From assembly GCF_014712225.1 (NCBI RefSeq), contig NZ_JACXBW010000001.1:62001-126000 (forward strand): 64,000 nt of DNA. Reading direction: 5' to 3'. The position numbers and the translations under genes were made by a program. The DNA comes from Pseudarthrobacter sulfonivorans. GTDB taxonomy: Bacteria; Actinomycetota; Actinomycetes; Actinomycetales; Micrococcaceae. Positions within the stretch are counted from its first letter, which is position 1. Every line of letters begins with the position of its first letter. The notes beneath the pieces were generated by a model. That model was not told the DNA's origin, searched no databases, and saw only the letters and a list, made by a program, of their open reading frames with translations. Below, one piece after another: positions 5,772 through 51,637 of this stretch.

Positions 5772-6391
5772 TTGGCATCCTCCTCGTTCTTTGCCACTGC
5801 CTTGTCAGCAACGAATGCTTCGTAGGCAGCCTTGGTGAAGACAACGTCGTCAGAGACGAGTACGTCGTAGGTGTTCAGCTGGTCTGCGTACAGAACGTGA
5901 ACTCCGGCGAGGTTGCGCACGGAAAGTGCTGCAACATCGTTGGCGCGCTCGATGACAACCAGCAGGTTCTTGCGCTCGGAAACTCCGCGCAGCGTTGCCA
6001 GTGCGGTCTTGACGGACGGCTTGGTGCCCTCCACCAGTTCAGCAACAACGTGGATGCGACCGTTGCGTGCCCGGTCAGACAGTGCGCCGCGCAGTGCAGC
6101 AGCAATCATCTTCTTGGGGGTGCGCTGGCTGTAGTCACGCGGTGTGGGACCGTGGACAACGCCACCACCGGTCATGTGAGGAGCACGGATTGAACCCTGA
6201 CGGGCGCGGCCGGTGCCCTTCTGCTTGAACGGCTTGCGACCTGCACCGGAAACCTCGGCGCGGGTCTTGGTCTTGTGGGTACCCTGGCGAGCAGCAGCGA
6301 GCTGGGCAACGACGACCTGGTGCAGCAGCGGCACGTTGGTCTGAACGTCGAAGATCTCTGCGGGCAGGTCAACCTTGACAGTGCTAGTCAT
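5768..6391 (-). CDS. rplD: 50S ribosomal protein L4
   Basis: L4 has a globular body and a loop into the exit tunnel. In E. coli it also represses the S10 operon. The 207-aa product has the extended loop region [15 protein letters not shown] typical of the family. It lies 4 bp after rplC and overlaps rplW by 4 bp. Confidence 0.98.
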
Positions 6392-6395
6392 TGAA

Positions 6396-7046
6396 CTAGG
6401 CTCCCTTCACGGCGGTGCGTACGAGTACGACCTGGCCGCGGGCGCCGGGGACGGCACCCTTGATCAGGAGCAGCGACTTCTCGACGTCAACTGCGTGAAC
6501 CGTGAGGTTCAGCGTGGTGTGACGAACGGCGCCCATGCGGCCGGCCATTTTCATGCCCTTGAAGACGCGGCTCGGGGTGGATGCGCCACCGATTGAACCG
6601 GGCTTACGGTGGTTCTTGTGGGCACCGTGGGAAGCTCCAACGCCGTGGAAGCCGTGACGCTTCATAACACCGGCGAAGCCCTTACCCTTGGTGGTGCCAA
6701 TAACGTCGATCTTCTGGCCGGCTTCGAAGAGCTCAACAGAAAGCTCCTGGCCCAGCTCGTAAGTGTCAGCATCTGCAGTGCGCAGTTCGACGACGTGGCG
6801 GCGAGGCGTGACGCCTGCCTTTTCAAAGTGACCAGCCAGCGGCTTGGTGACCTTGCGGGGATCGATCTGGCCGTAGCCGATCTGTACAGCGACGTAGCCA
6901 TCAGTGTCTGCGTTGCGCAGCTGGGTGATGACATTCGAATCTGCCTGGACCACAGTGACGGGGATGAGCTTGTTGTTCTCGTCCCAGACCTGGGTCATGC
7001 CGAGCTTCGTGCCCAGCAGGCCCTTTACGTTACGGGTTGCGGTCAT
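6396..7046 (-). CDS. rplC: 50S ribosomal protein L3
   Basis: L3 is an early-assembling protein near the peptidyl transferase centre. The 216-aa product starts [21 protein letters not shown] and includes the L3 signature around [14 protein letters not shown] and [15 protein letters not shown]. It follows rpsJ by 17 bp. Confidence 0.98.
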
Positions 7047-49738: not shown

Positions 49739-50437
49739 ATGTCGCACATCCTGCTATTGACGAACAGCACCGGGTCATCGGTGGACATTCTGCCTGCCCT
49801 CGAATTACTGAATCATCGCGTGCACATCCTCGCCGCTGAGCCCACCGCCCTGCTGGAGACTGATCCGTGCGACATCGTGCTGCTGGATGCCCGCAAGGAC
49901 CTGGTGGGCGCCCGTTCCCTCACGCAGTTGCTGAAGGCAACCGGGTTGAGCGCACCGCTTGTCCTGATCCTGACCGAAGGCGGCATGGCTGCCGTTTCTT
50001 CGGCCTGGGCTGTGGACGATATTGTGCTCGACTCCGCTGGTCCGGCCGAGGTGGAAGCACGCATCAGGCTCTCGGTGGCAAGGGCAGTTCCCGAACAGGA
50101 CGATGCTCCCACGGAGATCCGGGCAGCCGGGGTGGTTATCGACGAGGCCAGTTACACGGCCCGCGTCAACGGCGCACCGCTGAACCTGACATTCAAGGAG
50201 TTCGAACTCCTCAAGTACCTGGCCCAGCACCCCGGCCGCGTCTTCACCCGCCAGCAACTGCTCACCGAGGTTTGGGGCTATGACTACTACGGCGGCACCC
50301 GGACCGTTGATGTCCATGTCCGCCGCCTCAGGGCCAAACTCGGGGCGGACCACGAAAACCTGATCAGCACGGTCCGCAACGTCGGCTACCGCCTCACCCT
50401 GGTGCGGCAGCAGGAGGACGAGCTGACGGAAGCCTGA
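49739..50437 (+). CDS. glnR: GlnR-type nitrogen regulator (orphan OmpR-family response regulator)
   Basis: GlnR controls nitrogen assimilation genes in actinobacteria. The 232-aa protein starts [21 protein letters not shown] and closely follows the layout of Streptomyces GlnR, including [29 protein letters not shown] and [19 protein letters not shown]. The winged helix ends [12 protein letters not shown]...TVRNVGYR. A receiver Asp is present ([10 protein letters not shown]) although GlnR is atypical and has no adjacent kinase. GGAGGAACA precedes the ATG. mshD follows, as in mycobacteria. Confidence 0.92.
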
Positions 50438-50458: not shown

Positions 50459-50499
50459 ACAACAGCCCCGGACCACCTCAAGTGGTCCGGGGCTGTTGT
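50459..50499. terminator. Strong two-way terminator between glnR and mshD
   Basis: A perfect 18-bp stem (arm ACAACAGCCCCGGACCAC; loop CTCAA) lies 21 bp after the glnR stop. It would end glnR on the plus strand and the candidate small RNA on the minus strand. Confidence 0.93.
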
Positions 50500-50593
50500 T
50501 GCATATTTCGTGGAGGACATACGGGTCGAACGTATCGAGGCCACCCCACTGGTGGATCCCCCTCGCTCCCGCCAGTCTCCTGCCGGGTGAGGT
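50459..50593 (-). ncRNA. Candidate structured small RNA
   Basis: On the minus strand a consensus-like promoter (-35 TTGATG 50621-50626, 17-bp spacer, -10 TATAGT 50598-50603) precedes ~133 nt with no reading frame, ending at the strong hairpin 50459-50499. The body can form a tidy three-way junction: P1 GGAGAC (50575-50580) with GTCCTCC (50512-50518); P2 CGAGG (50561-50565) with CCTCG (50536-50540), capped by CCACC/GGTGG; P3 ATACG/CGTAT (50519-50523 with 50531-50535) with the 7-nt loop TTCGACC. P2/P3 and P3/P1 abut with no unpaired bases. I do not recognise the family. Start and end are inferred. Confidence 0.55.
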
Positions 50594-50597
50594 ACCG

Positions 50598-50626
50598 ACT
50601 ATACGTAACTGCCGGGGCACCATCAA
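50598..50626 (-). promoter_or_regulatory. Promoter of the candidate small RNA
   Basis: TTGATG, 17 bp, TATAGT on the minus strand: one of the best sigma-A-type matches in the window. No protein gene lies downstream on that strand before the terminator. Confidence 0.7.
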
Positions 50627-50665: not shown

Positions 50666-51637
50666 ATGAGTCCTGCGCACCCGGAAAAATGGCCCGTCCT
50701 CGTTGTCCACGGCGGTGTGGACGAGCAATTGCAGAAGGATTGCCTGGGGCTCCTCGCCGCCGCCGAGGAATCCGACGGCAACCCTTCGCTTTCCGAGCAG
50801 ACAGTGGTAACACTCCGCGCCGGGGATTCCGCCGAGCACTCGCTCCTGACCCTGGCCCTTTACGCCCCGGACGAGGACTCAGACCCTTCCTCCGGCCAGG
50901 ACCTGGCCGGGTTCGCGGTGGTGGTGGAGGAAGCCGACGGCAGCGGCGTGCTGGAGATTGCAGTCCACCCCAGCTACCGCAACCAGGGCGTGGCGGACCG
51001 TCTGGTAGGTGCATTGAAGTCCGAGCGGGGTTTGGACGGCCTGAAGGCGTGGTCGCACGGCAACCACGAGGCGGCAGCGGACCTTGCCGCCCGTTACGGC
51101 TACGGTCCGGTGCGGGAGCTCTGGAAGATGAGGCTGACCACCGCCACCGCTGAACTGCCCGACGTCGGCCTTCCGGACGGCGTTACGCTCCGCGCCTTCG
51201 TGCCGGGCAGGGATGAGGACGGATGGCTTGCAGCGAACCGCACCGCCTTCGCCCATCACCCGGAACAGGGTTCGCTGACCCGTGCGGACCTCGATGCCCG
51301 GATGGCCGAGGACTGGTTTGATCCCGCCGGCTTCCTGCTTGCCGTGGACGCGGAGGGCCAACTGCTGGGTTTCCACTGGACCAAGGTCCACCCACGGCAC
51401 GGCGCGCACCCGGCGATCGGTGAAGTGTATGCGGTGGGAGTCACCCCGGCCGCGCAGGGCAGGGGCCTGGGCAAAGCGCTCACTGTTGCCGGGATCAGGT
51501 ACCTGCAGGGCCTGGGGCTGCACGCCGTCATGCTGTACACGGACGCGGACAACGCGCCGGCCGTCGCCCTCTACCGTGGCCTGGGTTTCACGCGCTGGGA
51601 CATGGACGTCCAGTACGGGCCTCTGACCACGGCTTAG
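50666..51637 (+). CDS. mshD: Mycothiol synthase (mycothiol acetyltransferase)
   Basis: MshD acetylates Cys-GlcN-Ins in the last step of mycothiol synthesis. The 323-aa protein has two GNAT domains. The first has HPSYRNQGVADRLVGAL; the second has the diagnostic NRTAFAHHPEQGSLT, WFDPAGFLLA, LGFHWTKVHP and the acetyl-CoA loop AAQGRGLGKALTVAG. Length is typical. Its presence supports actinobacterial origin. It is downstream of glnR, with a candidate small RNA gene between. Confidence 0.95.
   Translation: MSPAHPEKWPVLVVHGGVDEQLQKDCLGLLAAAEESDGNPSLSEQTVVTLRAGDSAEHSLLTLALYAPDEDSDPSSGQDLAGFAVVVEEADGSGVLEIAVHPSYRNQGVADRLVGALKSERGLDGLKAWSHGNHEAAADLAARYGYGPVRELWKMRLTTATAELPDVGLPDGVTLRAFVPGRDEDGWLAANRTAFAHHPEQGSLTRADLDARMAEDWFDPAGFLLAVDAEGQLLGFHWTKVHPRHGAHPAIGEVYAVGVTPAAQGRGLGKALTVAGIRYLQGLGLHAVMLYTDADNAPAVALYRGLGFTRWDMDVQYGPLTTA

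Follow-up and report, generated by a model that had tools for sequence, protein, structure and literature searches.

Staphylococcal cell-wall tRNA-Gly is a tRNA-type molecule that serves outside translation. The same has been described for the pseudo-tRNA tRNA-Other of Bacillus cereus (PMC3399842). Whereas these molecules are known as a tRNA gene and a pseudo-tRNA gene, the RNA considered here, for which a role of this kind is proposed, has no anticodon arm. The tRNA-like domain of tmRNA (SsrA) is described as the upper half of a tRNA without an anticodon, is charged with alanine, and has its 5′ end cut by RNase P (PMC3985003). Unlike tmRNA, the RNA considered here has no mRNA part, and outside the Micrococcaceae it is linked to lipid genes rather than to trans-translation. 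Among synthetases, the mini-AlaRS of Tupanvirus, described as having no editing or C-Ala parts, charges acceptor-stem RNA via G3:U70 (PMC10036535), and the AlaRS2 protein described below is likened to it; the microhelix of the Tupanvirus case is a laboratory substrate, whereas here a natural gene supplies the small acceptor. In Corynebacterium, AlaDAGS/pesT combines an MprF-type synthase with an esterase-type partner, the products being Ala-DAG and Ala-PG; the passages on this pair name no special RNA or second AlaRS (PMC10580965), both of which are found in the cassette carrying the RNA. How MprF-type enzymes divert aminoacyl-tRNAs from translation was called an open question in a 2023 review, according to which the affinity of these tRNAs for MprF seems to equal that for EF-Tu (PMC9976931).

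In the window, the whole 64,000-nucleotide stretch of Pseudarthrobacter sulfonivorans DNA that was analysed, the RNA is read from the minus strand in the spacer between glnR and mshD (Table 1). An earlier note on this DNA had proposed a promoter and a structured RNA at this place and the absence of a protein gene. A promoter scan confirmed the promoter, and TTGATG-17-TATAGT was the only promoter-like site between positions 50400 and 50700, where shuffled sequences averaged 0.1. The promoter is kept only partly across the family: of 174 distinct copies, 60 have TATAGT within 150 nt upstream of the RNA. Over these 174 copies the best promoter score averaged 7.9 of 12 versus 7.0 for shuffles. The absence of a protein gene was also borne out, no frame being preferentially open in the 174 distinct copies (the numbers of copies open throughout 129 nt were 88, 81, and 70 for the three frames). 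The perfect 18-bp terminator said to be shared with glnR was recovered as a hairpin, with 19 bp, but a terminator scan requiring a T-run found none. A terminator-like hairpin with a score of at least 12 was found for 136 of the 174 copies versus 2 of 174 shuffled sequences. The hairpin is likely a terminator for the RNA and perhaps also terminates glnR on the opposite strand. Folding energy by itself is no evidence for an RNA, because the z score of −5.46 obtained with the hairpin falls to −0.39 without it.

Table 1. Features of the RNA locus in window coordinates
Feature	Position	Strand	Basis
Promoter TTGATG-17-TATAGT, predicted	50598..50626	-	Promoter scan
5′ leader, predicted, ~30 nt	50563..50592	-	Start near 50592 inferred from promoter; alignment variable here
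tRNA-like core, conserved, 51 nt, no anticodon arm	50512..50562	-	Conservation and covariation
P1 acceptor-like stem, 5′ strand GGGGGAU, holds G2, G3, G4	50556..50562	-	Paired in 22/22 relatives
P2, D-arm-like hairpin CCACC-AGUGG-GGUGG	50541..50555	-	3/5 pairs change on both sides
Linker CCUCG at place of tRNA anticodon arm	50536..50540	-	5 nt in 172/174, 4 nt in 2/174
P3, T-arm AUACG-UUCGACC-CGUAU, canonical T-loop	50519..50535	-	Alignment, covariation; stems rewritten in divergent copies
P1 3′ strand GUCCUCC, holds U70	50512..50518	-	Covariation alignments
A and C, readable as discriminator A73 and C74	50510..50511	-	Sequence
Hairpin, 19 bp	50459..50499	-	Folding
glnR, convergent neighbour	49739..50437	+	PF21695 GlnR_1st, PF00486; synteny
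mshD (name from the earlier note), divergent neighbour	50666..51637	+	GNAT acetyltransferase domains

The three-way junction drawn in the earlier note was partly retained. Its P3 (ATACG/CGTAT with the T-loop TTCGACC) is paired in all 22 aligned relatives, but no relative forms its P1 (GGAGAC/GTCCTCC) in full, 40 of 132 cells being paired there. Its P2 (CGAGG/CCTCG) is complete in 17 of 22 (105 of 110 cells). The revised P1, GGGGGAU/GUCCUCC, and the revised P2, CCACC/GGUGG, are complete in 22 of 22. Of the two abutting pairs of stems that had been described, P3 and P1 do abut; P2 and P3 are separated by a 5-nt linker in the revised fold. P3 comprises 5 bp and a 7-nt loop (UUCRAYY) and joins P1 without a linker, as the T-arm of a tRNA adjoins the acceptor stem directly. 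P1 is an acceptor-type stem of 7 bp, a length kept in 22 of 22 relatives, and is followed by A and C. In each of the 174 distinct cores the loop of P2 closes with GG, ahead of which its length varies (AGUGG, AGUUGG, GGUUGG), much as in a tRNA D-loop. An anticodon arm is absent from the 174 distinct cores, a linker of 4 to 5 nt taking its place; these cores were picked by a pattern that requires the T-loop class, the P1 3′ strand, and the following A and C, so that the counts from them are not independent. The T-loop noticed earlier was the clue to the tRNA-like nature of the predicted molecule. A further CA, which would make up ACCA, follows in 74 of the 174 distinct copies but not in the window copy. 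The tRNA genes of this genome likewise have mixed tails in the ARAGORN calls, with several stopping at AC or ACC and others encoding the full CCA.

ARAGORN called two tRNAs in the window, neither at the RNA, and left the core uncalled. Rfam 15, including RF00005, gave no match for the core; on the locus as a whole it gave seven matches up to an E value of 10, none above its family threshold and five overlapping the hairpin. The description of the locus as no recognizable tRNA is therefore strictly correct, both programs being silent, but the predicted molecule is tRNA-like. The earlier statement that it is not 6S RNA or tmRNA agrees with the Rfam matches, which include none of these families. 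The lack of an Rfam match speaks against 6S RNA and Ms1 (Arthrobacter appears in a genus list within the Ms1 section of PMC9130861), and the lack of an Rfam tmRNA match, together with a core of just 51 nt, speaks against tmRNA.

A DNA search of 59 genomes matched 25, of which 23 carry the core; in L024 and L025 the match covers the hairpin only, and mshD was not found in either. Across the 23 core sequences, 47 of 62 alignment columns are invariant. A covariance model built for the RNA (R1), run with stricter filters under which weak matches may be lost, identified it in 145 of 395 Micrococcaceae genomes, representing 11 of 32 genera. An R1 search of 297 genomes of the order, also under stricter filters of this kind, identified 13 carriers, all of them Micrococcaceae.

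Covariation was assessed in alignments fitted to the model, which favours the structure. In 69 distinct sequences, 99.9% of cells were paired and 4 pairs showed two-sided changes; the paired cells, the two-sided changes, and the covariation score were each reached by 0 of 500 shuffles, and 52 of the 500 had at least as many pair types. Once copies from outside the family were added (55 distinct rows), the tally of two-sided pairs was attained by 4 of 500 shuffles and the tally of pair types by 209 of 500. When the divergent copies described below were included, the 17 pairs were paired in 99.7% of 984 cells, 6 of them (3 in P2 and 3 in P3) changed on both sides, and none of 500 shuffles reached any of five measures. 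No version of the fold slid along this alignment had more than 1 two-sided pair. The earlier note had called for an alignment across the Micrococcaceae, and compensatory changes were found in the revised P2 and P3. P1 hardly varies (six of seven pairs are invariant across the 69 distinct sequences, and the alignment with divergent copies adds one U·G to C-G change and one unpaired cell), so its pairing rests on complementarity. Conservation and covariation support the proposal of a new structured small RNA with a T-loop, and the 51-nt core is almost certainly a structured functional RNA.

Read as an acceptor stem, P1 consists of G1-C72, G2-C71, G3·U70, G4-C69, G5-C68, A6-U67, and U7·G66, followed by A73. 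The bacterial alanine identity set is given as A73, G2-C71, G3·U70, G4-C69, and G20 (PMC9976931). A73, G2-C71, G3·U70, and G4-C69 are all present in the RNA; G20 has no counterpart, the P2 loop ending with GG at the stem. G3·U70 is constant in 58 of 58 distinct rows, divergent copies included. Of 50 tRNA matches in this genome, 30 were obtained as loci and run through ARAGORN, giving 32 distinct tRNA sequences, some differing only in the tail; all 4 tRNA-Ala sequences have G3·U70, and none of the 28 other distinct tRNAs examined does. Leu, Ser, Tyr, His, and Gln tRNAs are absent from this set of 32. The tRNA-Ala(UGC) of this genome has GGGGGCA/UGCCUCC-ACCA where the RNA has GGGGGAU/GUCCUCC-AC, and G3·U70 and A73 are common to both. 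The RNA differs from tRNA-Ala in length (51 versus 76 nt) and in lacking both the anticodon arm and the two linker bases between P1 and the D-arm-like hairpin. Judged by these sequence marks, the RNA is very probably an alanine acceptor.

Within the Micrococcaceae the genomic setting is stable. In 142 of 166 distinct copies glnR lies downstream (convergent) and mshD upstream (divergent); the remainder comprise 8 with mshD only, 2 with glnR only (at stretch ends), and 14 with neither, namely 13 from other families and that of Arthrobacter cryoconiti. In this last member of the Micrococcaceae, which has the ordinary AlaRS only, the RNA precedes MprF-like and esterase genes on the same strand. 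The RNA was also found at a Micrococcaceae-type mshD locus in records labelled Vibrio cholerae 35D (L154), an Acidobacteria MAG (L201), and Sporosarcina beigongshangi (L224), which suggests that these assemblies are mislabelled or contaminated.

A pattern scan of named genomes returned at least 117 stretches. Among the matches listed, the Micrococcaceae were Arthrobacter, Pseudarthrobacter, Paenarthrobacter, Sinomonas, Tersicoccus, Acaricomes, Specibacter, Psychromicrobium, and a Renibacterium MAG; those outside the family were Williamsia, Gordonia, a Rhodococcus MAG, and a record labelled Kitasatospora arboriphila. In the carriers outside the family, the RNA lies beside genes for an MprF-like aminoacyl-lipid synthase (PF09924; E value, 1.4e−74), an esterase (PF00756; E value, 6.8e−15), and AlaRS2, a protein of 470 amino acids that matches only the aminoacylation half of AlaRS (PF01411; E value, 1.5e−110; TIGR00344 positions 1 to 431 of 847); this linkage was sought after the alanine idea had been noted. 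The PF09924 synthase is linked to the RNA in most outside loci and in A. cryoconiti. Some of the outside 8-kb stretches do not have all three genes, and those of Williamsia L220 and L240 have none. AlaRS2 and an ordinary AlaRS are both present in 11 of 11 non-Micrococcaceae carriers among the matches listed, the AlaRS2 of Gordonia hirsuta having one stop reported inside the match. No match to the RNA was found in IMG/VR, PLSDB plasmids, or phage records, which were searched for a mobile element.

Some genomes carry more than one copy. Two RNA copies were seen in Gordonia desulfuricans (L195:2694-2753 and 6357-6416), Arthrobacter sp. Br18, and several Williamsia, and the search with a second model, R2, gave two matches each in G692, G693, G699, G791, G697, and G888. 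The two copies in L209 are 746 bp apart. No cassette genes were present within the 8-kb stretch around the second Williamsia loci.

Among 201 genomes from the family of G. desulfuricans, the RNA (model R2) was identified in 13 and AlaRS2 in 17, using a cut of at least 658 bits (the next match scored 254). All 13 RNA carriers, 8 of them already known from the pattern scan together with their AlaRS2 and 5 new, have AlaRS2 on the same contig at a distance of 0.1 to 6.0 kb, a count uncorrected for kinship. The other 4 of the 17 AlaRS2 carriers (L349 to L352) had no RNA in the fetched flanks, that of L351 ending at a contig edge, and these flanks were also without a close MprF or esterase gene, two holding MprF matches of just 22 to 25% identity. 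A conserved stretch near RNA-less AlaRS2 looked coding by eye, and upstream of AlaRS2 in L350 lies a sequence resembling a cobalamin riboswitch followed by a cobN-like start.

In the 297 genomes drawn from the order, AlaRS2 (at least 549 bits) was present in 6, none of them Micrococcaceae, and in 0 of the 24 Micrococcaceae of this draw, 13 of which carry the RNA. AlaRS2 does occur in the Micrococcaceae, as a protein of this type, 66% identical, is named from Paenarthrobacter nicotinovorans. Proteins of ~470 amino acids annotated as alanine--tRNA ligase-related protein are seen in many actinobacteria, e.g., Agromyces, Microbacterium, Pseudonocardia, and Nakamurella. Of the flanks of the six AlaRS2 genes from the order draw, three contained divergent RNAs, ~85 to 115 bp upstream of the gene and on the opposite strand (E values, 1.7e−8, 3.3e−8, and 9e−7); no divergent RNA was found in the other three (L389, L393, and L394). 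The divergent RNAs keep GGGGGAY/GUCCUCC, G3·U70, and A73. Their T-arm stems are UCAGG/CCUGA and CCAGG/CCUGG, their T-loops are UGCGAUU or UGCGAAU, and they have neither the GG loop nor the UUC T-loop. A weak second R2 match in L391 (positions 1809-1860, read 1860-1809; E value, 7e−4), probably due to chance, was kept out of the alignment.

In E. coli AlaRS, N303 and D400 read G3:U70 (PMC10036535). The Williamsia AlaRS2 has N and D at the equivalent positions, as do the three AlaRS2 proteins encoded next to divergent RNAs and three others that have no RNA; the Rhodococcus MAG protein has A and E, and that of G. desulfuricans has G and D. The Tupanvirus mini-AlaRS is reported to be without both residues yet dependent on G3:U70, and to charge a microhelix about as well as tRNA, and E. 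coli AlaRS to prefer tRNA-Ala over an acceptor-stem microhelix about 68-fold (PMC10036535). On these grounds the evidence from the AlaRS2 residues is mixed.

The P. sulfonivorans genome itself has one AlaRS, no AlaRS2 being found, and a single PF09924 protein, which is encoded far from the RNA and is 42% identical over 833 amino acids to that of A. cryoconiti. Of the 395 Micrococcaceae genomes, 111 have both the RNA and PF09924, 34 the RNA only, 129 PF09924 only, and 121 neither (Fisher P = 8e−7, uncorrected for kinship). Of the 34 carriers without a PF09924 match, 28 fall in one genus. MprF as the only recipient of the alanine fails on these 34 of 145 Micrococcaceae carriers. In a survey of 80 genomes chosen from the 395, FemAB-type transferases (PF02388) were present in 48 of 48 RNA carriers, including all 34 without PF09924, and in 30 of 32 non-carriers; being present nearly everywhere, FemAB was rejected as a discriminator.

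Because of its fold, its alanine marks, and its linkage to AlaRS2, MprF-like, and esterase genes, the core is best explained as an alanine carrier. Transcription would start from the promoter-like site, RNase P would cut off the leader, and 3′ trimming and CCA completion would produce a molecule that begins with the first G of GGGGGAU and finishes with ...GUCCUCCACCA. Alanylation through G3·U70 and A73 would be performed by the ordinary AlaRS here and by AlaRS2 where present. The charged RNA would not enter decoding, because it has no anticodon. An MprF-like enzyme may then pass the alanine to lipid, a step suggested by the linkage, which is strongest outside the family, and the esterase may perform the reverse step of lipid alanylation; where an MprF-type enzyme is missing, a FemAB-type cell-wall transferase would be the next candidate recipient. 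From the comparisons made here, the core is probably a dedicated non-ribosomal carrier of alanine, likely for envelope-modifying transferases, and there is a reasonable likelihood that the recipient of the alanine lies in the envelope.

Arthrobacter-type peptidoglycan often has alanine bridges, and together with the presence of FemAB in every carrier tested this allows for a variant in which the Micrococcaceae recipient is the peptidoglycan interpeptide bridge, served by FemAB-type transferases, rather than lipid. This variant appears unlikely: the occurrence of FemAB in almost all non-carriers gives no discrimination, and outside the Micrococcaceae the RNA is tied to an aminoacyl-lipid synthase. 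It is also rather doubtful that the RNA is a tRNA-mimicking regulator, i.e., a decoy or sensor binding AlaRS, RNase P, or another tRNA-binding protein rather than an amino acid donor. The elbow marks of tRNA type (T-loop and GG loop), the near-invariant sequence, and the presence of the RNA without AlaRS2 and, in some genomes, without PF09924 agree with such a mimic. However, the whole acceptor end, with A73-C and the alanine marks, is retained even where the T-arm has been rewritten, and this, like the linkage to a synthetase and a transferase, fits a substrate better.

Several cassettes have the RNA and hairpin immediately 5′ of a co-oriented esterase or MprF gene, as would be expected of a leader or attenuator in which the tRNA-like fold and hairpin control read-through into these genes. 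This is quite improbable: in the Micrococcaceae, the gene downstream is glnR in opposite orientation for 142 of the 166 distinct copies, leaving nothing to attenuate, and in G. desulfuricans and at the divergent loci it is AlaRS2 that the RNA neighbours. The invariant CCUCC and the glnR synteny could point to a regulator that base-pairs with targets through an anti-Shine-Dalgarno seed (GUCCUCCAC) and may act in nitrogen control. In all 22 relatives, however, the CCUCC is tied up in P1 as part of its 3′ strand, and outside the family the linkage is to alanine genes, which makes this highly improbable. The role in nitrogen control that the earlier note had suggested found no support beyond the position beside glnR, since the RNA occupies other loci outside the Micrococcaceae, with AlaRS2, MprF-like, and esterase genes, so that only position speaks for it. 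The acceptor end shared with tRNA-Ala might also be the relic of a decaying tRNA-Ala gene or a stray fragment, but the chance of this is negligible: covariation contradicts it, and the RNA persists across several actinobacterial families, where its stems show compensatory changes and a hairpin follows it.

The preferred reading is thus that of an alanine carrier, and with some confidence we favour its fuller form: a half-size tRNA, encoded by a stand-alone, anticodon-less gene, that is unable to enter decoding and forms a delivery line for alanine beside translation, in some actinobacteria with its own AlaRS, lipid alanyl-transferase, and esterase. Among the matches listed in open-access full texts, no anticodon-less alanine tRNA-like RNA other than tmRNA was found. 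The RNA is regarded as a new variant within the tRNA-like kind and would deserve a class of its own if charging and transfer were shown. Its gene goes uncalled by ARAGORN and Rfam 15 although it is carried by more than a third of the sampled Micrococcaceae genomes. If the reading is true, a dedicated anticodon-less carrier, in some genomes served by a separate synthetase, would directly answer the question of how MprF-type enzymes divert aminoacyl-tRNAs, and would be a natural counterpart of the minihelices from origin-of-coding experiments.
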